Source of the DNA: Owenia fusiformis | Taxonomy: Eukaryota > Annelida > Polychaeta > Sabellida > Oweniidae | Direction of reading: 5' to 3' | DNA length: 64,000 nucleotides | Assembly (NCBI GenBank): GCA_903813345.2 | Contig: CAIIXF020000007.1 | Span: 28,507,564 to 28,571,563 of the forward strand | Shown: positions 8,423-61,480 of the stretch, piece by piece | How the letters are laid out: each line of letters opens with the position of its first letter | Numbering within the stretch: position 1 is the stretch's first letter | Notes under the pieces: generated by a model | The model's input: only the letters and a program-made list of their open reading frames with translations | Told to the model about the DNA's origin: nothing | Databases searched by the model: none | Position numbers and translations under genes: made by a program

Positions 8423-8551
8423 TTGGTTTTCGATAACTGGACTACTTGTATCCGACATTGCGACTCTATGGTAATGTCTGTGCGGAAATATCCGATTAAT
8501 AACACGATTTATTGATCCAATTCTCTTCAAAATACCCGGCTCTTTTCCCAT
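8423..8551 (-). CDS. Candidate first coding exon E1
   Basis: Reads from an ATG at 8551 (MGKEPGILKRIGSI...) for 43 codons to ...SSPVIENQ, where the frame meets a consensus donor GTAAGT (8422 downward) in phase 0. The frame is also open upstream of the ATG, and a second ATG at 8458 would give a 12-residue version (MSDTSSPVIENQ). The residue mix is balanced, unlike the AT-driven chance frames nearby, and the sequence is CpG-richer than its surroundings. It lies about 715 bp downstream (in minus sense) of another phase-0 candidate first exon. The encoded peptide is basic and I do not recognise it. Calling it a first exon is inference; no acceptor or downstream exon was found in the window. Confidence 0.5.
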
Positions 8552-8760
8552 CGTGTTTGACAGCCTCGTTTTCAAATGTAAACTACCACGACACGCCCCA
8601 AAATGTATTTTCGGATCAAAACACAACCACTGTCAACGTTCCCCAACAAATGCCCATGTCTTAACGCATTGCCTTATATTGTCTTCGAGCTGATTACAAC
8701 TGACGAGAAGCATGATATTAGACTGATTTATATTGTTTTACTTGAAATTACCCTGCTTAC

Positions 8761-8857
8761 TGATTCAGTGATTGTGACCGGCGTGTGCGGCGACTAGAGG
8801 ATCAATCATCTTCCGAGCAGTATCACTATCCGACGTATCCGTAGCCCACCTTTTCAT
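8761..8857 (-). other. Possible 5' untranslated exon
   Basis: A CpG-rich segment ending at a GTAAGC donor (8760 downward). It contains a 30-codon ATG frame (starting MKRWATDTSDSD) that stops 4 nt before the donor, so if it is an exon it is non-coding or carries a short upstream frame. It lies between candidate exons at 8423-8551 and 9266-9460, in the same promoter-like pocket. Confidence 0.25.
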
Positions 8858-9265
8858 TTTGTACAAATTAACGATAGGAATGAGACAAAGTAGGTGTAAG
8901 TATTTCAACCTCTCCTTCTATCCAATAACAGCCTGATCATGTTCAATATACGACGCTGCCATCTATGTAACTCATGATGCCGAATATTGCAATCACTTAG
9001 GCTAGTGGTGACAGTATCACAGCCTGTTTCTTTCATGGCTTTGATGATGAGAATGTGATTGTGACTGAGAAAAAATGAAATGACCAAAATTTAAATCAAG
9101 AACTTAATATCATTCCACCGCCTTCATAGGCTATAATTGGGTCAATTAATAGTCAACTTCTGTACTGTGATATAAAATAAATTAATCTGCCCAACTTCCT
9201 GCGATCATTTATCTTCACATAAGCACTTTAAAATTAAATCGTAAAACCAAAGACGACCACCCTAC

Positions 9266-9460
9266 CTCATATCGTCTAAATGGCACAGGATATCTTAATT
9301 TATTGAGACCCGAAGGGAGATTTATCCAAGGTGTGGTCGACGAATACATATTCTCAGCGCCTTCATCAACATTGCCACTCGCGTCTTCATTGTTATTGTC
9401 GGTCGCATCATCATTAACATGGTGATAATCAACATCAGCTTTAGTCGGAACACAACTCAT
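9266..9460 (-). CDS. Candidate first coding exon E2
   Basis: Starts at an ATG with A at -3 (9460; MSCVPTKADVDYHHV...) and runs 65 codons to ...RYPVPFRRYE, ending at donor GTAGGG (9265 downward) in phase 0. The first 40 residues are acidic and N/D-rich and probably disordered; the last 25 are hydrophobic-aromatic with basic residues (PWINLPSGLNKL...). Codon use and composition differ from surrounding chance frames, and the exon is CpG-rich. No family is recognised. It shares strand and splice phase with E1, E3, E4 and E5, which suggests alternative N-termini on a common body; the common exons are not visible here. Confidence 0.5.
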
Positions 9461-10215
9461 ACTGAATTTAAGTTTTTAATATCGCTAGATGATGACCACT
9501 TCGTATTTTATAACAAATACATGTAGTATTTCAAACTTTAATTGTGTTTTTTTAATAATCAGCCAATTTTGTTCGCAATTTTACTCCAACGACACATTAT
9601 AATTTTCAAACCGTTCTAATTTTACTGTGTTGACCTTCATTGTAATACTGGTGGACTTCCAACATTTGCTCCTTAGCATTATTTGACGTTTGTTCTCGTA
9701 TTTGCTTCTTCATTTAGGCTTGGTGTACTTAATAAATTGACCCTTTGTCCGGATTAAAGTAATAGCGTATTTATATTAACACTCAAGACTTTCAAGGGGG
9801 CTTAACTACAGAAATTAAGCAATATCATTGGCATATGATGCTATTTATTTTCAGACCTTATGTTATAATCCTAAAAGGATATTTTAGTTCAAGTTCAAAA
9901 TAGTTAGTTATTTACATTCAAGGTAGTCTGATCATGGGAAGCCCATGGTCTGATTGATTTCTATAAAGCTGAAAACAAACCTGAAAATAGCCCGAGGAGC
10001 CTACACAAAACATGAAACTCTCCCCCACTCAAGGTAGGAACACTCGTTCTGATAGAAATATATCACTGATTATCCATTTGACTGTCATTACGACAGTTTC
10101 GCCATCTTTCAAAACACAACAAAACTGAAGACATTTATTGTTGCAAGAGTATTATCATAATCAAAGAACAGAAACAAGGCATGCCATCACCTGCCATTTG
10201 TAACAAACGTCTTAC

Positions 10216-10245
10216 GCCGAAAGTGAGACACCAATCGCCGAACAT
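10216..10245 (-). CDS. Possible short first exon (10 codons)
   Basis: An ATG with A at -3 (10245) reads MFGDWCLTFG to a GTAAGA donor, again phase 0, in a local CpG-rich patch. At ten codons it could easily be chance; it is listed because strand and phase match the longer candidates. Confidence 0.2.
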
Positions 10246-10920
10246 CGTCCACAAAAAAAAGTTGACGACTATAACAATATGTCACCTCTTCTTATCGTGT
10301 CTGATCATGATGTATTGATGATAATTATAAGTATAAATCATATTTCACACTGATACTATAAGGTTTCTCCGGAAATTACAATGCCTACAGAATGCCATAT
10401 TGCTTGAGAAAGTCACTCGTATGGGTTGTATTGCAGAGCCATATGTTTCTTTGATCAAAACATGCCATACTACCTCTGATTAAAAATTGTAATGGACCTA
10501 CACAGATGTATTTTGATCAAGCAATTACTGATACGTTTCGCTAGGTTAGCAATATGAGAAGTATGTTGACGAGAGTCAAAATGCCAATTTGACGAAATAC
10601 CTTACATTTGATGGCGAAATTACTTACCCTTTTATGTCGACTAATTTAAGAGCAATTAAGACTTTGTAAGTTATTTATCATGAATTCCATATCATGTTAT
10701 CAGGTTTGCAACATTCCATTGGGTTAAGTGTTAATACCGTTCTTTAGATGTCGTGAGTCTTAAAGTATTATCCCTCAAGTTGACTTTCGCTACACACACC
10801 CCTTCTTAAATATCATGTTGTTCTCGATCTCACATAGGAAATGTTGTTCCCTGATATAAACACAACCCAGACAATAACTGTACGATATTTCAGAAGAGCA
10901 ATCCACACCCTTAAACTCAT

Positions 10921-10975
10921 TGCAATTACCATGACAATCTAGCCTCATAGCAATTACCATGACAATCTAGCCTAT
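10921..10975. repeat. Short 27-bp direct duplication
   Basis: GCAATTACCATGACAATCTA followed by GCCT occurs twice in tandem, with starts 27-28 bp apart. Confidence 0.8.
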
Positions 10976-11194
10976 AGTGCAAAACATAGCGAACGAATCT
11001 TTCCGAGAGTGAAAAATGTTAAAATGAAATCAGCCAATATGCTGTTTTCCATCCAAAATATATGTAGAAATACTCATGGAATAAAAGGACGCATTTTAAA
11101 CCATAGCCAGGAATGGCGTTAGCAATTTGATTCTGAAATGGAAACACGTTTTTGCTCGTTTTTCTCAACCTCTGATGAATTTTACTATACTTAC

Positions 11195-11227
11195 TGTGAC
11201 GGTGAAATCTGCAGTAACAGGTGGCAT
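11195..11227 (-). CDS. Possible short first exon (11 codons)
   Basis: An ATG at 11227 reads MPPVTADFTVT to a consensus GTAAGT donor in phase 0. Its strand and phase agree with the longer candidate first exons, but its length gives little statistical weight. Confidence 0.22.
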
Positions 11228-11633
11228 AACTGGTTGACTTATGTGTCTATTCACTCCTACGTTTATTTATCTTTTCGAAATATTACTTAAGAAGTCTTTC
11301 GCACATTAACAATCTTCGATCAAATTATATACTTTTACATTTATTGCGTCGCCTTCACAGAGTCCCCTAATAAATGCATATGACAATGGTGTCAAAGTCG
11401 CAAGAGGTTCTTGACTAATCTTATCCACTGTCTATGGACAGTATGTTATGAGATCGCATTTGAGAAGTTAATACACTACAAGCTGAGGTGCCTCTAATAA
11501 TGATGTATGAGATACAGTACAGACTAAAGGATATCACGGTTCTAGTCACATACTATTGCTTAATTACAATTTGTCACCTGCAGTATGCTTACAAGTACTT
11601 CTATAGCTGCTAAAACAGTTCTTGAAATCACAG

Positions 11634-12046
11634 GATGATATCTCCGAAAGGGCAGCAAAAAGAACAATGAACATACTCCAGATCTCTCTATCTATCCATA
11701 ATCTTGCCTTACTCAGGAAGTCTGGACGTTTCCTGTCCCGCCCTCAGGTTGTGGAGTTGAGGGGATGGGGAATCACAGGGGTACCTTTAAGATGTGAGAA
11801 CACGTGGAATATAAAGCAGATGCCCTTTTTCAACCCCTACTACCACCCACTTCTATAGCAACTAAAGCTTTCATGACTGCTCTTCAAGATGTCATGCGAA
11901 GAGCCGAACATGTTCCCCTATTAAACAAAAATACGGAAAAAGATTTACAGCATATGCTTCAATATTCAAGACCCCTGAGAGAGGCTGTCATTTGTGACAT
12001 AGTGTCTCTCACATTAGGACATTGCGTTTTATATCCCCTTACAATG
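11634..12046 (+). pseudogene. Possible partial or decayed coding segment
   Basis: Two adjacent plus-strand frames have protein-like composition. The first (about 11634-11800) includes ISERAAKRTMNILQISL and LRKSGRFLSRPQVVELRGWG. The second (11798-12046) includes TALQDVMRRAEHVPLLNK and YSRPLREAVICDIVSLTLG. The second is also readable as a clean exon, 11859-12046, because a long pyrimidine tract ending in TATAG precedes 11859 and a GTACGT donor follows 12046; it would start with one base owed by the previous exon and end in phase 0. Alternatively the two frames form one old coding region broken by a shift near 11800. I do not recognise the product. Confidence 0.35.
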
Positions 12047-12458
12047 GTACGTATACGAATTTGTGAAATTTCCATATAGAATGAAAAATACAGTCATTTT
12101 AGTGATACTTCAATTGATATTCAACTTGCAGAGATGTTTAGCTTTTACAGCCTGGGTCACTAATGAGTCACACAACGTAAAATGTTCTAGACAATCTAAA
12201 ATACAGTAAGCCATGATGAGTCCACCCGTGAGAAAACACTAAGGGCAACATTAGTTGAAAATAAAAATTACAAAACAACTGTGAAGTGACAGCAATTGCA
12301 ACTAGAAGTCACCATTCTCGATTGCCACAGCTATGGAAAGAAGTAAATATCATTGGACCAGGAATGAGGATTGATATTATTCTCACGACACCGATTTATG
12401 ATGCGCAAAGCAACCATAGCATAATCCCTGTTCTCTGTGAATAAACGCATGTTATATG

Positions 12459-12543
12459 GTTCATGACATCGTGGTAATCCACGCCCTCTCCATCTCTATC
12501 CTTCATGCGATGCAACAGAGAGAGATGCTATGAGTATCAGAAT
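12459..12543 (-). repeat. Dispersed repeat R1, diverged copy
   Basis: Inverted copy holding TCATGACATCGTGG at one end and GAGATGCTATGAGTATCAGA at the other, the two R1 hallmarks in the expected order; the middle differs. Confidence 0.55.
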
Positions 12544-12952
12544 GGGTTCATGATAGACCTATCATCTAGAAGCGACACAATTTAAAAGTAAAAGTTAACA
12601 ATGTAATAAACCTTTGTTTAAAGCACATTTTGCCTTGATTTTTTCCTTGTAACCAGTAACACACAACAACATACGCGTTACATCTCGTTGTGTCTAATAA
12701 TACAGTTATTTTAACGTATCTAGGTCTTCGTTTCCAAATAAGTTTTCTAAGAAGGAACTTCACCTCAAGACTAGTCCAAGATCAATGACGGGCTATTCCA
12801 TTAGAATAATATAATATTAGAAATAAAATATTTTATTATATTAGGTATAACAGAACTCTCCATTTACTAACTCTGAAAAGTCAAAGAGCGCATTTTTTTG
12901 AAAAACAACAACATTCTTTAGAACCAAATTGAAAAACTATAGTAAAGCTTAC

Positions 12953-13009
12953 ATCTATTTTATCGACGCCTCCACCTTTAGCGCTGGTCGACGACGTAGC
13001 TTGGTTCAT
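12953..13009 (-). CDS. Candidate first coding exon E3
   Basis: An ATG with A at -3 (13009) reads 19 codons, MNQATSSTSAKGGGVDKID, to donor GTAAGC (12952 downward), phase 0. The exon and its immediate upstream are CpG-rich (several CGACG). Its Ser/Thr/Gly-rich, probably unstructured peptide is typical of a variable N-terminus. No family is assigned. It belongs with E1, E2, E4 and E5 by strand, phase and sequence style. The overlapping upstream open frame (13021-13251) runs into a stop and does not join it. Confidence 0.45.
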
Positions 13010-13544
13010 AATGTTCGACCTTATATCCTTTTCTGGCTAAACTTTTCGTATGACTTTTGGAACAGTAATTCTATAATCCAACAAACAATGTGAAAACCGT
13101 TCCGATTTTCAGATAACGTTTTAGAAGTTGTTTTTGATAGTGGGCGAGTGTCTTTGGCTCCAAAAGAACAAGCGCATGAAGCTACACTGGCATACTTTAT
13201 AACAAAGATTCCAGAGCTTTCCATAATTTCGGAACTGAACAGATTTTCCATGTCTTAGACTTAACACACCTGTTGGCAATAGTTAGAAAGCATCATAACA
13301 AGAAAGTTGTTCTTAAATGATCCCTATTAAACTTACTCGAGAATTGTATAACAACATTTGTTTCGTTAGATCTTTCCAAACTATCAATTTAGACAAATAG
13401 ATTTTGGCTAAGTTCTGTTCATCGTTTATTTTGAACATCATATAATATTTTTCAACTTCATAGCCATTCATGTTAATGTTCTAGCAAAGTTTTTTGGCAG
13501 ATCTGTTCATTCATATCTCTAGAAAATCGAACACTTTTACGCTA

Positions 13545-14380
13545 TGAATCGAACATATCCCGTTTAATTGCCTAAAAAGACATTTAGTATGATTACCACA
13601 TCACCCAATAAAATAATCAAGGAATGCCATAGGAGACAGTTGTGTCCCTTCCCAACATATTCGAACATATTCCGTTCAATAGTAATTGCCTAAAAAGATA
13701 TTTAGTATGATTACCATACCACCCAATAAAATAATCAAGGCATGCCATAGGAGAGTGGTGTCCCTTCCCAACATATTCGAACGTATTCCGTTCAATTGCC
13801 TAAAAAGATATTTAGTATGATTACCACATCACCCAATAAAATAATCAAGGAATGCCATAGGAGACAGTGGTCCCTTCCCAACATATTCGAACATATTCCG
13901 TTCAATTGCCTAAAAAGATATTTAGTATGATTACCATACCACCCAATAAAATAATCAAGGAATGTGCCATAGGAGAGTGGTGTCCCTTCCCAACATATTC
14001 GAACATATTCCGTTCAATTGCCTAAAAAGATATTTAGTATGATTACCATACCACCCAATAAAATAATCAAGGAATGCCATAGGAGAGTGGTGTCCCTTCC
14101 CAACATATTCGAACATATTCCGTTCAATTGCCTAAAAAGACATTTAGTATGATTACCATACCGCCCACAGGCCCGTAGCCAAAAGTGAAAATCATGCAGT
14201 TTTTCACCATTTTGAGCACTTCTCAAGTGATTTTAGCCATATTTGGGCCAAAATTGTCAAATGTGACTCCCCCCCTGGAAATATTTGAAAACTGAACCCC
14301 CCCCCCTTGGCAAATCCTGGCTACGGGATCCAATAAAATAATCAAGGAATGCCATAAAAGACAATGGTCCCTTTCCAAGA
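13545..14380. repeat. ~112-bp tandem array interrupted by a MITE
   Basis: About 6.5 copies of a unit containing CGAACATATTCCGTTCAATT, TTTAGTATGATTACCA, CACCCAATAAAATAATCAAG and GGTGTCCCTTCCCAACATA. Unit starts at 13654, 13770, 13880, 13992 and 14102 give periods of 116, 110, 112 and 110 bp. The last unit is split by the element at 14168-14327 and resumes as CCAATAAAATAATCAAGGAA. Confidence 0.9.
14168..14327. mobile_element. CAGGCCCGTAGC-type MITE, copy B
   Basis: A 160-bp element with ends CAGGCCCGTAGCC and GGCTACGGG, inserted within one unit of the 112-bp array between ...CCGCCCA and CCAATAAAA. The intact units give the empty site (...CCACCCAATAAAA), so the insertion boundaries can be read directly. 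The right end has lost the last bases (GGGAT instead of GGGCCTG), which obscures the duplication. The interior has TGCAGTTTTTCACCATTTT and long C runs. Confidence 0.85.
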
Positions 14381-15782
14381 ACTGTTATAGCCAGAAATCT
14401 CGACAGCTATATAGAGTAAATCTTTGACTTCCTGATGAAGGTCTCATGCGTATATGCCATGTGTCAATTGTATGTGTGAAGACACAGACTTCACGAGAAA
14501 ATCATTTCAGTTATGAAGTAGAATGTGTTGATGCACACAGAACTCTCGATATAATGGTCACCACTGGTGTAGAGGAACAAGACAAGCGTTTATCATAATT
14601 ATTACCATCTCAAATATATTTCATCCTGAACAATTCATAATACCTCATCAATTGCAAATGGTGAAGTTCATAAGATTGCGGATATCACCATTTCACCATC
14701 ATATTTCATTTCATTTCATCACCATCATATCACCAGAGATTCATAGAAAAATGAACTTGGATTTTCATTGAAATATGTATGAAAATGGATTCCAGTCAAA
14801 ACTATATTATATGGAAAGTTTTGAAAGTTTCTCGATCTGTTAAATTGAATTCGATGAAACACAGGAACACCTATACAACAACTGCTAAAAATATAGTATT
14901 TGTCCCTCTACTAGAGACATCTTTGAATCAACGTATCTGTTTTTCCGTATTGTGTAGTGCAACCATTTTTAATCATCGATGTAAACGTTGCTTAATCGTG
15001 AGTAGTAGGAAAAACAAGCGTGTGTGTCCCCTATATAGGAGGGCATATGGGGTTGATACAATAATTGTATGGAATGAGATATTATATCCGATATATTCTG
15101 TTCAGGTAAATTCACCGATTATGATTCTACATCCAAACATTGGATTTATGAATTTGCTCACATATCTCCTTACACGACCATTCCATTATATCATTATGTA
15201 ATGTTGGGATTGATGTAACATGGCCTGGTTATCATTGCTAGTACTTCATGCCACTTACAATAACCAACACAAATTGTCATTGATCTTGATATCAATCCTT
15301 ATTTTAATCATAAACCAATATGTAAACTGTTACATAAAATACTTGCTATCTTTATTCAGCAGAAAAACTGGACACGTGCATTGAGTACATTCTAATCTAT
15401 CAGACACTCTTTTCTATGTAGAAAAACATAGAAACCATGGCTACTACAATGTCATGGCGACAATGGCAAAGAACATTCAACGCTAAAAACGAGGGGTTGT
15501 ATAACTCATCAGTTTTTCTTCAAGAAAAATTGTTTCTGAGCTAGTGATAACACTACAGACAATTTGGCAAAACCACCGTCTATTTTAGTTTGATATGGAG
15601 ATAAAGCTCATTCAATGTGCAATCAGATCAGATCCTATCAACCAAAATAACATCTCTATAATAACTAACAACTACAAACATAACACAATATCATATACAT
15701 AGTCCTTAAATATCGCGAAACAGAAATAGGTACAACTCAAGAAGTTTATTTTGGTCTATAGACTAGAGCAAGCCACGATTTC

Positions 15783-15820
15783 ATACCCTTTGCATTCGTT
15801 CTACTTCGCTTTTTACAAGT
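15783..15820. mobile_element. TACCCTTTGCATTCG MITE, solo end
   Basis: ATACCCTTTGCATTCGTTCT followed by ACTTCGCTTTTTACAAG matches the left end of the 25792 and 46968 elements. The matching AGGGTA right end is not found nearby, so this looks truncated. Confidence 0.5.
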
Positions 15821-15980
15821 TGACCACTTCAAATCGAGACAATTAATTGACCAAAATGAATGTTATTTCAATTAGTTCATGGACAACATGTATACAGTAT
15901 ATAGTCGACTCCGCAATACAACCATGCAATGACAACAATTCAGTACGTGCATTTCGACTTATCAGAGTCTCCTCTTTATC

Positions 15981-16167
15981 CAGGCCCGTAGCTAGGGGGG
16001 TTCGGGGGGTTCAGCCCCCCTGGCCAAAATTTCTTTCAAAATCATGCAGTTTTTCACCATTCTGACTTTTTTGAGTGATTTTTAGCCAAATTTGCCAAAG
16101 TTAACCCCCCTAGATTTTTTGGGAAAAGTGAATCCCCCGCCCTTGGAGAATTCTGGCTACGGGCCTG
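15981..16167. mobile_element. CAGGCCCGTAGC-type MITE, copy C (best preserved)
   Basis: A 187-bp element with perfect 12-bp terminal inverted repeats CAGGCCCGTAGC / GCTACGGGCCTG, flanked by TTATC on both sides (15976-15980 and 16168-16172). It has strong G-run/C-run asymmetry and the internal TGCAGTTTTTCACCATTCT segment. The 5-bp duplication agrees with copy A (AACTG) and with AACAG around 21540-23102. No open frame of interest; mobilised in trans by an unknown transposase, probably hAT-like. Confidence 0.88.
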
Positions 16168-16755
16168 TTATCTGACGTTTAAAAGATAAAGTAGAGGTTT
16201 TGGAACCTACATCGCAGTTTACGACTTTGGTCTTGACTGCATCAAACTAAAATCACAGACCTGAGCAATTCGATAAACTCTTCACTATGGCCTGATTATA
16301 TTAGAATTAAAACTGACCTTACTTTTCAGATTCAATTATTGTTTGGATTAATGTAAATTCTGGAGATGCTCCTACTGGGGCCAATAAAAACCACACTGCC
16401 TGATCACAATAAGAAGACAGCCTTGCTTGTTTCTAATGTTTATATTGATTATTGCTTATATCATTAAACTTAGATTTATCTATCAATTGATTCAATTTTC
16501 CAACTTTATGGCGTATCAAGTTGTATGAAGATGCATTAAAATTATACGGAAATGCTCAGTATTTATAAGGGTATGGACGTGATTATGTGAAAATCTGTTT
16601 CGGAGTACAACCCCGCCATGATACCTAACTGCGAATTTATTACTGGCACATTCTCGAAAATACAAACATGTATATTCAGGTGTTATCAAGGTTCCAAACT
16701 AATAGTACCATTGTTATTTTTCCACCCAGGTATAATTAATATGGCCCCCGCTCAC

Positions 16756-16914
16756 CTTGGGAACCATGACAACAACTACATTCTTGGAGTGCTGTCTATC
16801 CTTGTCTCCAGAAAGGAAGGCTTTGGACATCGCCCTCTCACGTTTACTGACCATTGGGACGTCATCAGACTTTCCCCCTCCAATGCTCATTTCTCTGTGC
16901 CCAACCATATGCAT
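16756..16914 (-). CDS. Candidate first coding exon E4
   Basis: An ATG with A at -3 (16914; MHMVGHREMSIGGGKSDDVP...) runs 53 codons to ...SKNVVVVMVPK and meets a strong donor, AAG followed by GTGAGC (16755 downward), phase 0. Internal in-frame ATGs at codons 3 and 9 are alternative starts; MSIGGGKSDDVPMVSKRERA would be a plausible N-terminus. The peptide is basic with several Ser/Thr sites flanked by Arg/Lys and ends in a short hydrophobic patch. The opposite-strand open frame at 16618-16944 is a shadow. No family recognised. Confidence 0.5.
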
Positions 16915-16954
16915 GATGGCCGATCGTTTGTTCTACGATTATGAGTTACAGTAA

Positions 16955-18598: not shown

Positions 18599-18795
18599 AG
18601 CTTGTATTCGCAAATGCAACTACCGACTGTCGGCTACTAGATTAATCTACTATTTTATTTGTCCTATTTTATGGGTAACTTATTTAAATATAAAAAGTAC
18701 CTGCCACTATTCGTTCATATTTAAATGAGTTGTTCATAAAAGTGTAGGTCAATCCGGTAGCCGACAGCCGGTAGTAGCATTCGCAAATACAAGCT
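18599..18795. mobile_element. MITE with TTCGCAAATGC ends, copy A
   Basis: Left AGCTTGTATTCGCAAATGC then AACTACCGACTGTCGGCTAC; right GTAGCCGACAGCCGGTAGTA then GCATTCGCAAATACAAGCT. This gives inverted repeats of about 42 bp around a 110-bp AT-rich core. The terminal arms contain a secondary palindrome (CCGAC-GTCGG). A related copy lies at 24541-24702. I could not define a target duplication. Confidence 0.8.
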
Positions 18796-19424: not shown

Positions 19425-19495
19425 CCATATTGTATTGTATTGTATTACATTATATTATATTATATTGTCATGTTGTATCATGTTATATTATATAA
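19425..19495. repeat. ATTGT/ATTAT microsatellite
   Basis: Imperfect pentanucleotide run: ATTGT, ATTAC, ATTAT and ATGTT variants over about 70 bp. Confidence 0.8.
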
Positions 19496-21539: not shown

Positions 21540-23102
21540 CAGGGCCGTCAGATGGGGGGGGGGGGTGCGATGGGTGCGACCGCACCCCCCTTTGTCACCC
21601 CCCAAAAAATTTGAAAAAAATTTTTTTGAAAAAGAAATTTTTTTTGAAAATTTTTTTTTTGTAATTTTTTTTTATTGACTCATACACTTTGAAAGTACCC
21701 AGAAAGCACCAAATAGCATCTTAAAATTGTAAAATTTTCTAGGGGTATTGGCCACCCCTCACCCCCCCCCACAAAACAATGGAAAAGTTCTAAATTTATT
21801 TTAGTGTTTTGTCTCAGACACTTTTAAAGTGCATAGACACCATCAAATAGCTCCTTGATACAGTTAGTGTTTCTGGGGGACTAATACTTGCTCTCCCTCT
21901 TGCATCTTGCACTTGCATCCCCACACCAACTCCCCCTCTGACCCCCCCCCCCCAAAAAAAAAAAATTAATTTGATAAAAGTTGTGATTTTCTCAAATTCT
22001 TTAATTGACTCATACACTTTGAAAGTCCCCAGAGAGCACCAAATATCGTCGTAAAATTGTAAAATTTTCTAGGGGGAGTGGGCCACCACTCACACCCCAA
22101 ACAAAACAATGGAAAAGTTCTGAATTTGTTTTATGTATTGTCTCAGACACTTTTAAATTGCCCAGACATCATCAAATAGCTCCTTGATATAGTTAATGAT
22201 TCTGGGAGACTAACACTTACTCGCCCTCTGGCATCCCCACTCCACCTCCCCCTCTGGCATCCCCCTTGACACCCCCCCCCCAAAAAAAAATTGAAAAAGA
22301 AATTAAGATTTTTCAAATTTTTTATTGACTCATACACTTTGAAAGTGCCCAGAAAGCACCAAATAGCATCTTAAAATTGTAAAATTTTCTTGGGAAATAG
22401 GCCACAGACACTTTTAAAGTGCCCAGACTTCATCGACTAGCACCTTGATGTTGTAAATGTTTCTGGGGGACAGATACGGTGGACAAACACTTGCTCCCCC
22501 TCTGGCACCCCAACCCCACCTCCCCCTCTGGCACCCTTCCCTCCCCTCCCCTTTGACACCCCCAAAATTTGAAAAAAATTATGATTGTTTTGTTTTTCAA
22601 TGTTTTTATTGACTAATACACTTTAAAAGTGCCTAGAAGCACCAAAATATCATCTTTAAATTGTAAAATTTTCTAGAAGAGTTAGCCACCCCTCACATCC
22701 CCCACCTTGATATGGTCAATGTTTCTGGGGGACAACCCCTTGCTCCCCCTCTGGCACCCCGCCCCACTTCACCCTCTCATCTTTTTTGCCACCCCCAAAA
22801 GAATTTGAAAAAAAATTCACATTTTTCTTATAGACTCATACACTTTGAAAGTGCCCAGAATGCACCAAATAGCATCTCAAATCTGTAAAATCTAGGGGGA
22901 GTGGACAACTCCTCACATCCCCCACAAAACGATTGGAACGTTTTGAAGTTGCATTTGTTAATGCCAAACCGATATAGGGAGTAACCGACCCCCCCCCCCC
23001 TCTGACTTAGGCGATTTGATTTACGCGGCAAAAAATTGACAATTTTATATTCTCTTTAGTAAAAACCGCACCCCCCTTGGAGAAAAGTGTCTTACGGGCC
23101 TG
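21540..23102. mobile_element. CAGGGCCGTCA element with internal satellite, copy 1
   Basis: A 1563-bp element. The left end is CAGGGCCGTCAGATGG, the right end GTGTCTTACGGGCCTG; the outer 13 bp are imperfect inverted repeats. AACAG flanks both ends (21535-21539, 23103-23107), a 5-bp target duplication. Inside, a unit carrying GACTCATACACTTTGAAAGT recurs near 21676, 22008, 22328, 22610 (diverged) and 22832 (periods about 220-330 bp), each with palindromic CACTTTTAAAGTG-type motifs and C-rich CCCCCTCTGGCACCCC blocks. Open frames inside are repeat artefacts. A second, inverted copy is at 41316-46947. It is non-autonomous; termini and duplication match the CAGGCCC MITEs. Confidence 0.82.
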
Positions 23103-24540: not shown

Positions 24541-24702
24541 GCATTCGCGAATTCAACTACGTACCTGCCGACGGCTGTCGGATTAACCAACTATTCTATA
24601 GTCAACTCATTTAAAGAGTACTTGTACTTGCCACCATTTCATTCATATTAAAATGACCTGGCAATAAAAAGGAGGTTAAACCGTCGGCCGGCAGTTGTAC
24701 AT
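24541..24702. mobile_element. MITE with TTCGCAAATGC ends, copy B
   Basis: GCATTCGCGAATTCAACTAC, GACGGCTGTCGG near the left and CCGTCGGCCGGCAGTTGTAC on the right, with a shared core (CTTGCCACCATTTCATTCAT) matching the 18599 copy. More diverged, with worn termini. Confidence 0.65.
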
Positions 24703-24961
24703 TTTGGCCCTAAATCCATCTTCGACTTCTAATTTTTAAGGTGGTTATAACACATTTGAGCAACTGAAACCTTGTGAATAAAAAATCCTCTAGTCCAGAT
24801 GGCATATAACTAACAATTTGTTTGCCTTGTCTAATAGATGCTCAAAGTCAAGTCCAATAAATGTTCGATGCCGACATTACAAATTACAAGTCATCATGAT
24901 CACGTTAGGCTAAAAGCAAGCTACCCTACAGGATGGTAATTGATGGTTCCTGACTAATATT

Positions 24962-25299
24962 TCATTGTGATGACATGAAAGAGTCAATAAAAGTACAACT
25001 TCCTCTATACCATAACCGGGGATATACCATATAACCCTTGCACAGTGTATCATTGTGATGACATGAAAGAGTCAATAAAAGTATAACTTCCTCTATACCA
25101 TAACCGGTGTGAAAGAAATTATGGTCCCCTTTCCTTACGGTCCTTACTGCCCCTGACTGTGTATATAAATAATAAGGAAAATAATTGTAATTAGGTCACT
25201 ATATAAATCAATAGAGAGTAGGACCAAAATTTAATAGGACCACCTACCCTTTTACACCGGGGATATACCATATAACCCTTGCACAGTGTATCATTGGGC
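24962..25299. repeat. 86-bp tandem duplication split by a MITE
   Basis: TCATTGTGATGACATGAAAG to ATACCATAACCGGGGATATA to CTTGCACAGTGTATCATTG occurs once uninterrupted (about 24962-25050) and once with an insertion at CCGG (25048-25299). The uninterrupted copy is the empty site for the 25108-25256 element. Confidence 0.85.
25108..25256. mobile_element. 149-bp MITE with CCGG target duplication
   Basis: Ends TGTGAAAGAAATTATGGTCC and GGACCACCTACCCTTTTACA form imperfect inverted repeats (TGTRAAAG ... GGTCC). CCGG is present once in the neighbouring empty copy and twice around the element (25104-25107 and 25257-25260), proving a 4-bp target duplication. TGT...ACA ends with 4-bp non-TTAA duplications exclude piggyBac; integrase-like Ginger elements are one group I recall with such features, but this is inference. 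Non-coding. Confidence 0.85.
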
Positions 25300-25429
25300 A
25301 CTTTGGGAACTCAAAAGTGTACACAGCTTTACGTAGGTCTTCACTCAGAGACATACTCTGGTTCATTATTCTAGGTTTGTAAACAAACAGATCAAGCATG
25401 CTCCGATTGTGTTTAAGGAGGTGTTTAAT

Positions 25430-25525
25430 ACAGGGTGTTTAAACAGATATTATGGTGTTCAGTGTTCACTGGAGACAGGTGTTTACTAGAGAGCGGTATC
25501 ATTTCCAAAGACATGTTTTACAGTT
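25430..25525. mobile_element. AGTGAACACC-family MITE, partial
   Basis: TACAGGGTGTTTAAACAG near the left and ACATGTTTTACAGTTAA at the right, with GTGTTCACTGGAGACAGGTG in the middle, matching the 39410-39573 copy. Confidence 0.5.
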
Positions 25526-25791
25526 AATGCGTTTCATCGATTGCCGTCATAATTTGATCATTTCAAGTTGGTCTATCGTCCGCACGATCTAGATATAGGG
25601 CTTAGTATTAATCCATATTTCTTAGTAAGACATCACGTAATTCATTGTCAAATCCTGGAAACGAATTGTCCAATTGAGTTTATAATCATGAAAAACTAAT
25701 TGGAGATATTCTAAATAAATCATAACTTCTTAACAATCTTAACAAGTATAAAATGTTTGACAAATATTTATTGAATTAACAATATAATCAG

Positions 25792-25863
25792 TACCCTTTG
25801 CATTAGTTCGACTTCACTTCTTAAAAGAGAGGTAGTTTAGAACTAAAGTTTGTGCGCAGGGTA
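25792..25863. mobile_element. TACCCTTTGCATT MITE, copy A
   Basis: A 72-bp element beginning TACCCTTTGCATTAGTTCGA and ending TTTGTGCGCAGGGTA. ATAATCAG precedes it and (A)TAATCAG follows, a 7-8 bp target duplication of hAT style. It also contains CTTCTTAAAAGAGAGG. Too short to encode anything. Confidence 0.75.
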
Positions 25864-26970
25864 TAATCAGGGTTTAAGTGAAATAAAACAATTCACGTCT
25901 CTCATCATAATAGTCATAATGGTGTTTCCCTAACACTTAGCAATAGCCCTGAAGATAGAAGTAAGCATTATATTGCATAAAGTTAAAAGGACTTGTAAGG
26001 CTAAGGGGAAGATATTAATAGACAATGTCGTCTTGCGTAATGATAACATAACTCAAACCCGAGCATTTGAGGGAAAATCAATCAATAAGATATGACAATT
26101 TGTGATCCATCAATCAATCATGCAATAATGGAGAATGACCATCGAAAATATTAAGAACAACCTGTTTACACAAGATACAATAATTACCACTGACGAGTTT
26201 TACCCAGGTCCTTGATTGACGTGTGGCATTATCTAAGAAACTTTAATCAATTAGAAAAATGCAGAAATAGATTTTGTAATTCCGGTGAATAGGAATTGAA
26301 TATATATCTTTAGTTACATGTAATCCACGCTGATTAACATTGATTTATCTTAGCTAGCTAGGTAGATTCCAGGTGAGTTTATTTACCTGTTATTTCAGAC
26401 TATAGGATTTCTCTAGGATCAAAGAAGTATTAATATATCAGTTGCAACCATCGGTTATTTGAGTAAAATAACGTGAAATGGGTTTGAATTGTGAAAAGGT
26501 TTCTGAACAACTCCCAAGCATCCAAAACAAGAATTTAATGAACAAAGAAACAGTGTCCATCCCTTTACTCCCTTTACCTAGTGACCGACTGCACCAATCT
26601 GTGTTTCTAATACAGGGTCGTAATGGCATTTGTACTAGATTGTCTTGTACTTACAAACTGTATTTGAATTTACCGTACAGAATAAACAGAAACTTGAGAT
26701 TCAAATATCTTAAATGGCTTCTGAATTATTGATAAATAGTTTTTTGTTTCCTCGCATCATTGCCTAAAGATAAGGTCTCTTCATTCAACAGTTATCCAGT
26801 GTTGTGGTAAGTGCCATTGGCATTACTCTCTATCGGCAGAATTATATTAAGTTTTCTTTACACTGGATCGAAACATACTATGATCCCATCACACCTACAG
26901 CCTATGTACAGCAAGCTTAATTGAATATGACATGCAATCATACGGTAATAGTCTGTTAAAACCAGCCGTG

Positions 26971-27040
26971 ACCATCGTGATAAACCATCTCAATTTTTCT
27001 TGGCTTTGTTGAAACAAAAAGGTGCTATGAGTATCAGAAT
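26971..27040 (-). repeat. Dispersed repeat R1, diverged copy
   Basis: Has ATCGTGATAAACCATCTCA at one side and GTGCTATGAGTATCAGAAT at the other, with GAAACAAAAAG between: R1 in inverted orientation. Confidence 0.55.
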
Positions 27041-27283
27041 ACAACTGTTAAACTATTGTGAACTGATACAATAATGAAATATTACTTTTATCCAAAGTAC
27101 AATGTCGAATTACACCTCGTTCTTCATCGTCCAACAAGCTTCCAAAAGTGTAAAGAGCACATCTATAAGTCTTTTTCAACATTGGACGAAGTTCCTGCCT
27201 CGATATCCTCTACGCACCAACATAACTTAGAACTTTGCAAAGCTCGACACATCAATGAGTATCCCCCATTTGCTACACTCTAA

Positions 27284-28975
27284 TGGAGCATCATTGTGTT
27301 TCAAAACACTTTTCAAAAGATCAGACACAGATGAGAGAAAAAGTTCCTAATTAAAAGGTGCCTGTATCAGGTGTGTAGTATATTCGAGTATAAATCTGCA
27401 ATATAATTATAATCAACATTTATAAAATGCAAAATTTGTACAAAAGCTGGTGGCACTTTATTGTACCCAGGAATACAGAGCCTTGTATTGAACAGTAGAT
27501 GAAACTATCTTTAGAAGTGAAATGAAACTTTTGCAAAGAGTCATTGTGGAATTCAAAGCCTTCACTATCCTTTGGAGTACAAAGCTCTATCAAGCATTAG
27601 ATAAAAAATGACTCTGATAAATCAGAATGGCAAAGGCTAGGCACTTGGGTCTGTGATGCCCACTTACTAGACAACTATGACACAGAAGCTAATATACTAT
27701 ATACATATAGTACAAATCATGGACTCTTGAATGATATTCATTCATTTAAAATCTAAGAACTGATAATTCTACATTTACTTAATACTTATTCGTCCTCATT
27801 ATTGGAACAATGGTGTGTCTACTGGAGTGTTCAAAGAAAGATAAGTTTGATTTGTAGACGAGCAGATCGATCGATACGTATCCATTTATTTCCTTTGTTT
27901 TATTCTGAATGTCAAGATGGAATAATATTATAACTTCGTTAGCATTTATTTCAATAATACGGGCAGTGTATCAACTTTTAACGTATAGCCACAAAGATGA
28001 ATAAACGACTCAATAAATGCCAGATATAGTTATACATAGATGATTTAATTAGTATCTATCAAGTCCATCATCGCCGTTCACATAAAACCAATGAAGTCTA
28101 AAATAACAGGATACATCTGTTCAGCAATGCAACGGATTGTTTTATTGAAAGTGATACTGGTACTGCCATGTTTTGTATCATGACATTATTTTTTATCTTC
28201 CTGTTTTTTATTACAGGATTAAAGATTACATGTCATGCAACATGTGCAAATATTGCCTAGGTTGGTTAACAATGTTGACAGTTTGTTAGCAAGATTTATT
28301 TTAGATTATAAGGATGCTCTTGAAATCAAAATAACTGGTATGGGGGAGTAATAACTCCAAGATGAATGCAAAAAAAGGTTGCATTATGTTCTATTAATTT
28401 GTTAATACAATCAAATCGACTAAGTCCCAGCCATAACAAGAAAGAAGAAAACAAATCCTTACTATACTTAACCAAAAATAAATGAAACATGATGAAAAAA
28501 TTCCATCCTTAGTCAACGAATTTCTTAGATAGAGGTCCATGCTTGGTCCAAGGGTATTTTAGTTCTTTCCATCAATACCTATAGCAGTGAAGACCGATCT
28601 TGAAGGATGCCAAAATCCAGGTCTGATCACTTTGGTGTCTTTCTTCTGTGTGTATTTATATCTACCATGTGTCTTCGACATTCAAAACCAAAAATAAATG
28701 GTTATTTCCATCAGAATGTATTCTCCAAAGAGATATTATTTTCTGATCGATACAATATGTAAAGACAATTGTTTAATAAGAAATATGCATAACTTGCTAC
28801 AAACATGAATTCAAAATGACGTTCATTGACGATATATAGGACCCAAGTGTACATTGTTCTCTGTTGATCACAGAGAAGAAACATCATTTATTCACGAATA
28901 GGTATCATTACTGAATTCATTGATAATTGGATCGGGACATTGTGAGATCCACAGCTTTCACTATCCCTTAATGAG
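27284..28975. other. Non-coding stretch
   Basis: No exon or RNA gene found. TTGGTCCAAGGGTATTTTA at about 28550 recurs in related form near 32590 and 35940, a minor dispersed motif. Confidence 0.4.
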
Positions 28976-29076
28976 GGGGGTATCCTCTGTAGTATAACCA
29001 TGGTATCACCATGCGAACCAGTCTAGCTCCATGCCCTTGTCAACAAGTATGAGAAGGTGTTTAGTCAAGTAGAGGG

Positions 29077-29217
29077 GGTCACAGAGGCTTGTAGCTAGAC
29101 TACATCCGGACACAGGCATCTATCTAGAACCCGTACCTCGTTCTCCTTGGAAGAAGGAAGGAACGCAGGGGATGATGCCCGGGGCTCTGCGTTCGGAGGG
29201 TGTAATGGACGGTTGAT
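29077..29217 (+). repeat. Dispersed repeat R2, copy A
   Basis: GGGGGTCACAGAGGCTTGTA, then CATCCGGACACAGGC, CCTTGGAAGAAGGAAGGAAC and CTCTGCGTTCGGAGGG. The second half recurs at 35455-35570 and the first half at 40601-40700, so this is the longest copy. No termini defined. Confidence 0.65.
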
Positions 29218-29288
29218 ATCTCTCAAACGAGTTCCCCCGAGTCAGAAAGCCTTATACTTAGTAATTGAAGTACTTAAGAAGGTACGTA

Positions 29289-29488
29289 CCAGGTCGATCA
29301 ATAAGTTCTGAGAATTTTCCTCTAAAATCAAGAGTTTTGTGAATTTTTATTTGAAATTTTCACAGAACATGTAATATGAATTCAGCAATTAGTGTAAGAA
29401 GTTAAATGCACTTTCCACCTATTGGGCCAAAATTATGGTTACCATGGTAACTCGTGTTTTGGGTAGGCGGGGCAAGTATTTTTAACGT
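29289..29488 (+). repeat. Mariner left terminal inverted repeat
   Basis: About 200 bp, starting CCAGGTCGATCAATAAGTTC. The outermost 34 bp match the right end almost perfectly; divergence rises inside. Includes TGGTTACCATGGTAAC. Confidence 0.9.
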
Positions 29489-29658
29489 AAATAAATTTTT
29501 TAACATCAAGCAACAATCTTATGTTTCAACCAAAGCATTGGATTTCAATGAGGATTTTGTTGTTTTTATAACCATCACTATGGTAACAATTTAATATGAC
29601 ATCATAATTCAGGACAAATTACATAATATTACTATTACATCATAATTCCACAACCTCA

Positions 29659-30936
29659 ATGTACCCTGCCAAAATGGCCGCTCCAAAAGATGCTAAAAAT
29701 TTGGAAGAAAATGAGGAAATGTCAATACAGATGCGCAGTGCCATACGATTTTGCGTGCTTGGTGGCAAAAGTAAACAAGAAACACTCAAGGAGATGTTGG
29801 TAGCCTTTCCAGGCAGGATATCCACTAAAACTATTTACAGATGGTATGGCAAATTCCAAAGTGGGAGAACCAGTGTAAAAGATGAAGCAAGGTCAGGAAG
29901 GCCACTATCTGTTACAAAGCCCACAAATATAATGAAGCTCAAGACTGTCCTTGATGAAGACAGGCGAATAACAATCAGGGAGTTAAGTGAAAAAGTAAAC
30001 TTCAGCTATGGAAGGACACAGTACATACTGAAAGAGAAGCTCCATATGAAGCTTGTGTGTTCTAAATGGGTGCCAAAAGATCTAACCATGGACCAGAAGC
30101 AGTGCCGGGTCGATGTTGCACAAGACTTCCTCAGACGATACCAAGCAGAGGGGGAGGCTTTCTTGGAGCGCATTATTACTGCTGATGAAGTTTATGTTTC
30201 ATATTATGAGCCAGAAGGCAAGAGGGCCACAAGTGGATGGAGAACAAAGGACTCCCCTACCCCTATGACGACCATTGCTAAACTCAATCGTAGAGATGGC
30301 AAGGTTATGTTCATCATTTTCCTGGATATCTACGGGGTACTCCTGGTGCATGCAGTCGCTGAAGGACAAACCATAAACAAAGACTATTATGCTATGGTAA
30401 GTTAGTGTGTGGCTATTGATGCCCTTCAGGATCATGTCTTGCCAGAGAATTTATGTTCACTCTAGTCTAGGTAGTTCAGCTTGAATGTACATGTAGTTTA
30501 AATACATCTAGTGAGGGAATGGTGCCCTAAAAATCACTTCTTTTTTCAGGTATTGAAACGTCATCTTTTAAAGCGGGCTATTGCACGAAAACGCCCTGAA
30601 ACAGAGCTGTCGTCATTACTTAATCATCACGACAATGCCCCGTCCCACACATCTTCGATTGTCAAAAGCACTGTATCTAATGACCTTCAGATGGAACAAC
30701 TACCCCATGCTCCCTATTCACCAGATGTTGCGATCTGTGATTTTGGTGTGTTTGGACCGATGAAAGATGAGCTGAGAGGATTCAGATATGCGAACTTTAC
30801 AGACCTCCACAATGCCGTGCAAAATGCCCTGAAAAAACGTTTCCCAGATGGATTTAGGCACTTGTTCCGCCAGTTGGTTCAACGCCAGGAGAGGTGTATT
30901 AAGAACCGAGGAAATTACTTTGAACATCTTAATTGA
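29659..30936 (+). CDS. Mariner transposase, two exons (29659-30396, 30550-30936)
   Basis: The transposase cuts and rejoins the element's ends in the nucleus. Exon 1 encodes 246 residues and exon 2 128, total 374 (mariners are usually about 345). An in-frame ATG at 29674 has the better context (A at -3, G at +4) and would give 369. Residues ~20-135 form the paired-type DNA-binding helix-turn-helix region (FCVLGGKSKQET, TIYRWYGKFQSGRTS, GRPLSV), followed by WVPKDL, the family's WVPHEL linker motif. Catalytic acids are D176 (ITADEVYVSYYEPE), D274 (HHDNAPSHT) and D310 (YSPDVAICDF). I count 35 residues between the last two, against 34 in canonical mariners. The intron 30397-30549 has GTAAGT and TTTTTTCAG and joins DYYAM to VLKRHLLKRAI exactly where mariners read continuously. 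No stop or frameshift. Confidence 0.93.
30397..30549 (+). other. Intron in the mariner transposase
   Basis: 153 bp, phase 0, donor GTAAGT, acceptor CTTTTTTCAG. Reading through it would hit a TAG at the third codon (GTA AGT TAG), so splicing is needed to make the catalytic second half. Confidence 0.9.
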
Positions 30937-31055
30937 ACCCCCTTGACATCTTACTAGGACTATATGACCAACCCTAATGCAGGAAGCAGCTCAGAACTAT
31001 ATTTATAATTGATTTATAAATGATTTATTTACATTTTATGCGCTTTACTTCTGAC

Positions 31056-31253
31056 ATTAAAATTATTTGCCCCGCCTACCCAAAACACAAGTTACCATAG
31101 TAACCATATTTTTGGTCCAATAAAAGGAAAGTAAGAAAAACTTGGTACACTAATTGCTGAATACATTCTACATATTCTGTGAAAATTTCATTCAAAAAGT
31201 CACAAAACTCTTGATTTTAGAGGGAAATTCTCAGAACTTATTGATCGACCTGG
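31056..31253 (-). repeat. Mariner right terminal inverted repeat
   Basis: Complement of the left repeat, ending GAACTTATTGATCGACCTGG. Contains GTTACCATAGTAAC where the left end has GTTACCATGGTAAC, and TTTGCCCCGCCTACCC. Confidence 0.9.
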
Positions 31254-31349
31254 TACACATCAAACCATTGGAAGAAGTAAGCTGAATGTTTCGTACATTA
31301 GACACTTACCTAGCTTAAGATAAGCAGCTTGCAAAACTAGACCTGTAAC

Positions 31350-32890
31350 TAAAGACAGTTTAAATGAAGAAGAATGCGACAGAGTAACTGAAGAAATCCC
31401 CAATGGACGTTTATAAAGTATGGAATGATTATGCTAACATCACCTCGTTTATCACAATATTTAACACATCTTTCTAACATACGACTAGTTATAGAAATAC
31501 CAACCATTGCTACCGGTGGAATATTTATCGACAAGTATTAAAATAAAGTAAAAACAATACCCTATGATTGGTTTTATATTGATTTGTTTTTCATTTTCTT
31601 TGACATGCCTTTCATAATGTGTTATTACTGATTGTATATAGGGGCATTGAAATGCATTATTGTGTTCTTATTACTATTAGAACGCTGACAATCGATTTGT
31701 TCCTTCTCCCTTTTTATAACTTATTATTAAAAAATAGCTAAACAAAACTGTGGCATCAAATACTTATAGTGAAGAAAAATCCAGTAATTACCCAGTACCA
31801 TTTTATCAAACAGGTACACAAAGCTGTGGTATTTGAAAAAGTAACATCACTTTTGAGGAAGGTATTGCTATTAAATACAAATAGTTTTACTTGATCGTAC
31901 AGGATCAAGAATACAAGGTTAAAGACACAAAACTACAAATAGCGAACTCATTCGTCAATTAGAATCTACAATTGTTCAAATATATTTACTAAACGTGCGA
32001 AACCACGTCCATGTTCTTATTTGCCCAGATCATATATTGACATTAAGTTTCTCATTAGTTGGATGAGAAACAAACTATAATTACCCTAAGCCATTATCAT
32101 GATGTCCAAGACGTATTGGTATCGGATCATATTGGTATCGAAGGTAAAATTAGCATTCGTCGGTAAGCTAGGCATATACAAGTTTATGATTACAGTGAAT
32201 AAGTTTACTGAGGCGCTTTTACCTGCTTGTTGTGATACAGACAGCAACATATGCGTGACGTCCATAACTCAAATCTATCACTCTTACCATGCATGAAATT
32301 ACATTCCTGGCTTTATTTCAGGAATCGTTATGAATTTTCATAATCGTATGATCTAAATACAATCAACGGAGTTATTGATTACACAATGCAAAAAACACCC
32401 ATCCTGAAAAGCACGTGTTAATGCAGTATGGAATAATACAGCAAAAATAACCCAGTATGTTTATGCAAGGAGGGGTATATGTTTAGATTTGTTTACGGAC
32501 ATGCTGTGGAACCTGCAGATTGAACCAACAAGCTAGGTTGAACCAGAGAATATACAGTACATAAGCTATTTAGCGGATCTCTCCATCCTTGCTGCAAGGG
32601 TATTTTACAAGTAGAATTTAGGCATAAATGAAGTCCTTTGAAGAAGGATGGATCTCTCGTAAATGGCCTGTTTCTTGTGCCGCCCTTGCGCGTGAGCTCG
32701 TACCCGAATTTTAACTACTACTACTATTGCAGTATGCTAATTATACCAACTAGATAAAACTCTCCAGAACAAAAGAACAAACTGATATAGCACCACTGCA
32801 CCGACAAATACAAGGGAAAATATCTTGAATCCAGCATCAATAGATGGTTTGATTCATATGTAGTGAGAGAGGTCTATATTTTTCACCAAC
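31350..32890. other. Non-coding stretch
   Basis: No exon, RNA gene or repeat family recognised. It lies downstream (minus sense) of candidate first exon E5, so it would be intron of that gene if E5 is real. Confidence 0.4.
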
Positions 32891-32960
32891 ACACTAGTCT
32901 TGCTCAAAGACTGTATCCACCCCCCCCCCGTCACCTTCACTCTCTTTACCTGGCAATATA

Positions 32961-32982
32961 CAGAGAAGAGAGAGAGAGAGAA
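32961..32982. repeat. AG microsatellite
   Basis: CAGAGAAGAGAGAGAGAGAG run inside the presumed first intron next to exon E5. Confidence 0.9.
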
Positions 32983-33061
32983 GGATAAAGGGGGGAGGAG
33001 TACGGGGTCTTTTAAGCAAGACTACCAACACACGAGTTGTTATGGTATTTATGATACATAC

Positions 33062-33169
33062 CGCTAAATCTGGAGGCAAATCAGACATCTTGTCCAGTTT
33101 TTTGCTCTTGCTTGTCTGGTTCTTTGCCGGGGTCTTCATCCCAGCAGTGCTCGCTCCCCCAACATTCAT
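33062..33169 (-). CDS. Candidate first coding exon E5
   Basis: An ATG with A at -3 (33169; MNVGGASTAGMKTPAKNQTS...) gives 36 codons to ...DKMSDLPPDLA, ending at donor GTATGT (33061 downward), phase 0. The peptide is Gly/Ser/Thr then Lys-rich (KNQTSKSKKLDK), low complexity, as expected for a variable cytosolic N-terminus. The exon is GC-richer than its flanks. If all candidates belong to one gene this would be the most upstream promoter in the window, about 16 kb from E4. No family recognised; the open frame continues past the donor only by chance. Confidence 0.5.
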
Positions 33170-61470: not shown

Positions 61471-61480
61471 GCACATTAAT

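Follow-up and report, generated by a model that had tools for sequence, protein, structure and literature searches.

DPP6/DPP10-type membrane proteins tune the potassium channels of nerve cells in other animals, and in the mammalian genes an exon junction falls exactly before the residues ELVG. Mammalian DPP6 and DPP10 possess several promoters and alternative first exons that provide swappable cytoplasmic N-termini (PMC3973911, PMC3366920), with five N-terminal variants described for DPP6 and four for DPP10 (PMC3973911). Exon 1a of DPP6a/DPP10a encodes the inactivation motif MNQTA (PMC3366920, PMC9409431). The fly DPP10 (NP_609051) is reported to bind Kv4.3, to alter its gating and to cleave Gly-Pro-MCA, and bears three surface insertions, while human DPP4 is described in the same source as not co-precipitating Kv4 (PMC4873792).

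Here, we analyzed a stretch of 64,000 nucleotides from the annelid Owenia fusiformis (the window), in which a sequence-only reading had singled out seven minus-strand frames as candidate alternative first exons. We consider it probable (about 0.83) that, as a whole explanation, these frames are alternative first exons, each with its own promoter, of a single DPP6/DPP10-type gene on the minus strand, the body of which lies below the window. This explanation draws on PMC3973911, PMC3366920, PMC4873792 and PMC8566240.

Candidate first exons and their shared phase

Re-examination of the sequence confirmed the ATGs, coordinates, open frames, donors and shared phase 0 for all seven frames. They are given below in window positions, together with a weaker candidate that was absent from the first list.

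8423..8551, minus strand: E1, candidate first exon of 43 codons, phase 0, MGKEPGILKRIGSINRVINRIFPHRHYHRVAMSDTSSPVIENQ; donor GTAAGT scoring 8.9, codon score 1.5
9266..9460, minus strand: E2, candidate first exon of 65 codons, phase 0; donor 9.9, codon score 9.0
10216..10245, minus strand: short frame, candidate first exon of 10 codons, phase 0; donor 4.7, codon score 1.5
11195..11227, minus strand: short frame, candidate first exon of 11 codons, phase 0; donor 6.7, codon score 1.3
12953..13009, minus strand: E3, candidate first exon of 19 codons, phase 0, MNQATSSTSAKGGGVDKID; donor 7.0, codon score 5.1
16756..16914, minus strand: E4, candidate first exon of 53 codons, phase 0; donor 11.4, codon score 12.9
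33062..33169, minus strand: E5, candidate first exon of 36 codons, phase 0; donor 8.0, codon score 10.4
54524..54586, minus strand: weaker additional candidate first exon of 21 codons, phase 0; donor 6.7, codon score 6.8 (an alternative phase-2 reading also fits, score 6.3)

The donors of E1 to E5 score between 7.0 and 11.4, and those of the two short frames 4.7 and 6.7. For all five long frames, but for neither of the short ones, the claimed frame ranks first among the six, and the support for 10216-10245 and 11195-11227 is not above chance. The codon use of E1 is likewise indistinguishable from chance over its 43 codons, which leaves E1 plausible but unproven as a first exon. No Pfam family matched E1, E2, E4 or E5 at E <= 1 (E3 is too short for this search), and a genome search with E3 returned a single match. 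The codon scores were trained on a set derived from a kinase search with at least 144 matches (124 of 876 candidates scored); among the matches listed, none lies near the locus.

All of the long frames had been described as lying in CpG-raised pockets. This holds for E1, E2 and E3, which fall at the 100th, 88th and 92nd percentile of 1-kb windows, E1 thus occupying the most CpG-rich window of all, but not for E4 and E5, which are average (56th and 46th). Plain GC is high at E5, however, and the short frames sit at the 73rd and 70th percentile for CpG.

The shared phase itself had been assigned odds of about 1%. The arithmetic, (1/3)^4, is correct, but it disregards the fact that the frames had been selected by visual inspection. 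We therefore scanned the 105 kb from exon 2a (see below) to the upper end of the window without selection, taking every ATG that runs over at least 15 codons to a donor scoring at least 6. At a codon score of at least 8, four loci were found on the minus strand, all four in phase 0; three of them are E2, E4 and E5, and the fourth is located beyond the window. A single such locus, within a mariner transposase, was found on the plus strand, and none of 150 order-3 Markov simulations reached four loci (mean 0.03, maximum 2). At a score of at least 5, the minus strand yields six loci in phase 0, E3 and 54524-54586 being added, three in phase 1 and one in phase 2, and three of these last four overlap phase-0 loci; the plus strand gives 1, 2 and 2. 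The window holds 22 long open frames, one of which was identified, as a mariner-type transposase; scanning it for Rfam families (gathering threshold) and for tRNAs gave no matches.

A paired exon 2 and the gene body below the window

A common phase-0 acceptor exon, sought beyond base 1 of the window, was found 41 kb below it, as exon 2 of a gene of the DPP6/DPP10/DPP4 family. It is present in two tandem versions.

G000:C7:28466482-28466596, minus strand: exon 2a, 115 bp, entered in phase 0 and left in phase 1; codes for a DPP6-like transmembrane helix
G000:C7:28465659-28465773, minus strand: exon 2b, tandem twin of 2a with the same length (115 bp) and phases (0 in, 1 out); likewise codes for a DPP6-like transmembrane helix

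The exon 2 search used site scores, a length of 70-220, entry in phase 0, exit in phase 1 (fixed by exon 3) and hydrophobicity, without any DPP sequence, and was made when a DPP gene was already suspected. It placed exons 2a and 2b ahead of all others in a table of 14 rows, with helix scores of 3.45 and 3.37, followed by 1.78. Exon 2a lies 49 kb from E1 and 74 kb from E5. The earlier proposal of one gene with many promoters and swappable N-termini thus gains support from a phase-0 exon 2 to which all frames could be joined, and by sequence and phase the locus would represent alternative first-exon use in a DPP6/DPP10-type gene.

Joining 2a, 2b and exon 3 leads to stop codons, as does skipping of both copies; therefore, 2a and 2b should be mutually exclusive. 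Tandem, homologous, of equal phase and frame-breaking when both or neither is included, they have the features expected of a mutually exclusive exon pair. A TATA-like stretch directly 5' of exon 2b was considered as a separate promoter and rejected, as no phase-0 initial exon was found downstream by reading.

From exon 2 to the last exon, the gene body extends on the minus strand from G000:C7:28466596 down to ~28427307. Its ectodomain combines a DPPIV_N propeller (PF00930, 3.1e-47) with the S9 peptidase fold (PF00326, 1.5e-51), and among solved structures the best matches are DPP6 (E 8.4e-62). The alignment of exon 2a to DPP6 starts at ELVGS (residue 18 in one chain and 76 in another); as the query itself began there, this starting point cannot count as separate evidence for the junction. 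The DPP6/10-type transmembrane helix is present in 2a by alignment and in 2b by tblastn with a manually entered query. An exon chain with GT-AG sites spans 18 of 20 anchors; model exons 3, 4, 12, 13 and one after -71768 were not cleanly resolved.

All three motifs of the catalytic DPP4-type triad are present. More specifically, the serine motif SYGG (GW-SYGG) lies at G000:C7:28433733-28433832, the aspartate motif GTADD within the exon chain, and the histidine motif TDKNH in an open frame further down, so that the active site is apparently intact. The serine loss typical of vertebrate DPP6/DPP10 (DPLP) is absent here, and because the catalytic serine is present the gene product falls outside DPP6/DPP10 as strictly defined in vertebrates.

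Taken as alternative first exons, each frame would supply its own short cytoplasmic N-terminus, joined in phase 0 to exon 2. A functional mRNA would contain exactly one of the two versions of exon 2, and with it one DPP6-type transmembrane helix, and the remaining exons would add the beta-propeller and the peptidase domain with its catalytic residues. By analogy with the known proteins, the helix may dock on Kv4 at its S1-S2 voltage sensor, the promoter-selected N-terminus may tune inactivation, and the ectodomain may have peptide-cleaving activity. The genome contains a gene of the Kv4 type (Kv4 N-terminal family match, 1.9e-12).

Alternative explanations

The gene might be real and yet have only one or two true first exons (e.g., 28497903-28498031, E4 or E5), most frames being chance ORFs in a long first intron. 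A single start would suffice for the gene, the codon scores of E1 and of the two short frames do not exceed chance level, and E3 has just 19 codons. We nevertheless regard this as unlikely in view of the four phase-0 loci at a codon score of at least 8 against the simulated mean of 0.03, and of the five and four N-terminal variants of mammalian DPP6 and DPP10 (PMC3973911). Far less probable is that the frames are part of some other gene on the minus strand with its body elsewhere, be it a KCNIP, PDE4, an ankyrin or one that is unannotated. The sequence-only reading had offered a faint likeness to KCNIP4 as a weak hint, but the downstream gene that was found is a DPP and not a KCNIP, and PDE4 is not supported, all three PF18100 (UCR) matches lying on another contig, C1. 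Furthermore, the next minus-strand exon found is the phase-0 DPP exon 2. An internal-exon scan of ~130 kb gave 12 minus-strand exons above threshold and none between E1 and exon 2, although the emptiness of this gap is weak evidence because the acceptor threshold would also miss 2a and 2b.

Within the preferred DPP6/DPP10-kind gene, exon 2b could be an unused, decaying duplicate of 2a, and it is indeed the less DPP6-like of the two (tblastn 53.5 versus 59.3 bits, with a manually entered DPP6-type helix as the query). Its frame, length, phases and splice sites are all intact, however, and 22 of 38 residues are identical to 2a despite 51 changes in 115 bases, just 8 of which fall at second codon positions. 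In 20,000 neutral simulations, an open frame alone was kept in 25.7% of runs and an open frame with a comparable helix in 0.06%, which makes decay an improbable account of 2b.

Comparison with known DPP proteins

If separately promoted first exons of one gene are the right reading, the multi-promoter N-terminal design of DPP6/DPP10 also occurs on a relative that retains its active site, which would suggest that the design arose before the vertebrate duplication. In that case, the pair of transmembrane exons would constitute a natural swap experiment on the contact between the DPP helix and Kv4 S1-S2. More tentatively, and with somewhat less than even confidence, we propose an invertebrate Kv4 partner that is switched at two independent places, by promoter choice of the N-terminus (at least six first exons) and by a mutually exclusive voltage-sensor-binding helix. 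A dozen or more isoforms would result, all of one protein that doubles as a peptidase, and the pore-blocking ball of MNQ type carried by one of the first exons would be older than the split between vertebrate DPP6 and DPP10.

What is new here is the duplication of the transmembrane exon. Among the titles and abstract openings listed, which come mainly from the open literature, none describes such a duplicated exon.

Like mammalian DPP6 and DPP10, the locus would combine variable first exons with a shared core to which the transmembrane exon belongs (PMC3973911, PMC3366920), and the ELVG...RNW[KR]GI helix is closely similar. In contrast, the mammalian proteins carry Asp or Gly at the catalytic position that is a serine here (PMC4873792), and the present gene has two copies of the transmembrane exon. 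We noticed no likeness between the first-exon peptides here and the mammalian ones beyond MNQ: E3 starts with MNQAT, the A/T order being swapped relative to MNQTA of exon 1a, and lacks the conserved Cys-13 of DPP6a/DPP10a (PMC3968176). The likeness of MNQAT to MNQTA covers five residues only and was noticed after the exon was known. DPP4 and FAP share the propeller, the S9 peptidase and the GW-SYGG serine motif, but the helix here is of the DPP6/10 type. The fly DPP10 (NP_609051) resembles the present gene in both respects, with a DPP6/10-type transmembrane region and a DPP4-like active site that retains the serine (PMC4873792); the main text of that source, which uses none of the words exon, splice and isoform, makes no statement on duplicated exons or on alternative first exons.

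Identity of the downstream gene

Exons of a dipeptidyl-peptidase-family gene lie on the minus strand below the window, which occupies G000:C7:28507564-28571563 of a 498-Mb genome; positions below it carry a minus sign and are obtained by subtracting 28507563 from the genome position. The joined gene pieces match Pfam PF00930 (3.1e-47) and PF00326 (1.5e-51), and among solved structures (best 60 of 74 distinct sequences) DPP6 ranks first, followed by DPP4 and others. Genome-wide, all four PF00930 matches at E <= 0.001 and two of 11 PF00326 matches fall in this gene. DPP8/9 and other family members are expected to match PF00930 too, and as none of them appeared at that threshold, the search is limited. 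The predicted gene is of the DPP6/DPP10 kind and is not PDE4, which the sequence-only reading had named as an example; KCNIP, also named there, acts on the same channel as DPP6/DPP10.

An exon chain with GT-AG sites spans 18 of 20 anchors and is incomplete: it excludes the anchors at -53284 and -67212, exon 3 runs beyond its likely donor, the exon ends near -70674 and -71143 are doubtful, and an exon after -71768 is not cleanly defined.

Last exon and neighbouring genes (neighbours recognised by eye)
about -80098 to -80256, minus strand: last exon of the DPP-like gene (exon model)
about -84705 to -84421, plus strand: LicD-like protein
about -94476 to -94021, plus strand: actin-related protein 3
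about -118763 to -114550, minus strand: PLAT-lipoxygenase

Candidate first exons in phase 0

The sequence-only reading had proposed same-phase alternative first exons of one gene. All seven of its frames are present on the minus strand in phase 0 at GT donors: E1 (8423-8551), E2 (9266-9460), E3 (12953-13009), E4 (16756-16914), E5 (33062-33169) and two short frames (10216-10245, 11195-11227). The raised CpG described around these frames holds at E1-E3 only. Codon log-odds were trained on this genome's exons (20 kinase stretches, the 19 with an open frame being used). Among the six possible frames they favour the proposed one at each of E1-E5, with a clear margin at E2, E4 and E5 and a slight one at E1; at both short frames, a plus-strand frame scores above it. 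E4, E2 and E5 rank second, third and fifth among minus-strand coding-like segments in a 124-kb scan run independently of that list.

An ATG-to-donor scan of the 105 kb between exon 2a and the upper end of the window yielded four minus-strand loci with codon scores of at least 8, all in phase 0 (E2, E4, E5 and -9675 to -9532, where two donors are possible), and one plus-strand locus, within a mariner transposase. Across 150 order-3 Markov sequences, which preserve base composition only and not repeats or other genes, the number of such loci averaged 0.03 and never exceeded 2, short of the four observed. At a score of 5, the minus strand carries six phase-0, three phase-1 and one phase-2 loci, and three of the four outside phase 0 overlap loci in phase 0. 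On the plus strand the corresponding counts are 1, 2 and 2. Given this excess in an unselected scan together with the simulations, the minus-strand phase-0 bias is real. It is due to E2-E5, and E1 and the two short frames earn no credit.

Further candidate first exons
-9660 to -9532, minus strand: best single extra candidate, outside the original seven; 43 codons, codon score 14.2, donor score 8.9
54524 to 54586, minus strand: weaker extra candidate, outside the original seven; phase 0
90652 to 90744, minus strand: above the window; phase-0 ATG-to-donor frame, codon score 6.1, donor score 12.0
96705 to 96797, minus strand: above the window; phase-0 ATG-to-donor frame, codon score 4.9 (against 5.9 for a phase-2 frame there), donor score 8.2

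In view of the last two frames, the DPP-like gene may begin above the window; its span would be about 113 kb from E5 and about 171 kb from 90744.

Repeats and mobile elements in the window
29608-30936, plus strand: mariner-type transposase in two open frames (frame 1, Pfam Transposase_1 and Mos1-type HTH; frame 2, by eye)
21668-22405 and 45576-46866: tandem arrays, units of about 330 and 322 bp
13549-14167: tandem array, unit 110/222 bp
52422-53490: tandem array, unit 76/116 bp
55586-55981: tandem array, unit 29 bp
61478-61890: tandem array, unit 140 bp

The transposase sits between E4 and E5. By eye, the consensus units of the arrays at 21668-22405 and 45576-46866 look like mutual reverse complements.

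A paired transmembrane exon

Between -47000 and 8423, we looked for 70-220-base exons that combine a hydrophobic stretch with a phase-0 acceptor and a phase-1 donor, the donor phase being set by exon 3. DPP sequence was not used, though a DPP gene was already suspected.

Top two of 14 rows in the exon search
-41081 to -40967, minus strand: exon 2a, 115 bp, helix score 3.45
-41904 to -41790, minus strand: exon 2b, 115 bp, helix score 3.37

The third row scored 1.78. This tandem pair, encoding ELVG...RNWRGIGIALLVILIVCALIVTAVILVTP (2a) and ELIG...RNWKGIGLAALVILLVLSLVVVAVFLVYP (2b), provides a candidate shared phase-0 acceptor of the sort that the sequence-only reading had proposed to look for beyond base 1. 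Genome-wide, a query of 2a plus exon 3 matched only 2a, 2b and exon 3 (up to E 10). Mammalian DPP6 first exons end just before ELVGS. This motif lies at residue 18 in one DPP6 chain and 76 in another, so the chains vary in length ahead of it; the match alone cannot place the first-exon junction, because the query started at ELVGS.

Either copy joined to exon 3 is open, and including both or skipping both hits stops. The copies are unlike at 51 of their 115 bases, with 8 of the changes in second codon positions; they share 22 of 38 residues and have flanks whose longest match is at most 27 bases. In a neutral simulation, the copy stayed open in 25.7% of runs and open with a comparable helix in 0.06%; NG86 gave a dN of 0.42 and an unusable dS, and no dN/dS ratio is claimed. 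From these differences, the unlike flanks and the simulation, we take the pair to be an old duplication, probably maintained by selection. A TATATAAG stretch lies 5' of exon 2b in the 2a-2b intron (G000:C7, between 28465773 and 28466482) and could mark an extra promoter.

Comparison with known DPP proteins

The original observation largely stands, and at the sequence level the analysis supports its reading as a single gene with many starts. Such a many-promoter design is already known from mammals: DPP6 and DPP10 are described as joining variable cytoplasmic N-termini, from alternative first exons, to a shared core of 25 exons, and five and four mammalian variants, respectively, are known (PMC3973911). 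Titles and abstract openings yielded no description of a doubled transmembrane exon in a gene that keeps its catalytic triad.

A Kv4 match (Shal-type N-terminus) is present in the genome at C5:18063627. As the DPP6 helix is reported to touch S1 and S2 of Kv4.2 (PMC8566240), a swap between the 2a and 2b helices could change voltage-sensor coupling. E3 starts with MNQAT, resembling the MNQTA of DPP6a/DPP10a, a start reported to confer N-type inactivation and to be conserved from fish to humans (PMC3366920, PMC9409431). E3 lacks their Cys-13, which is reported to confer redox control (PMC3968176).

The exon chain retains the catalytic serine (AIWGW|SYGG) and aspartate (IHGTAD|DNVHF), and the histidine is retained in YTDKNH. 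In mammalian DPP6 and DPP10, by contrast, Asp and Gly replace the serine that this gene keeps; according to the same source, fly DPP10 resembles DPP4 around the serine, cleaves Gly-Pro-MCA, and both binds Kv4.3 and shifts the gating of that channel (PMC4873792).
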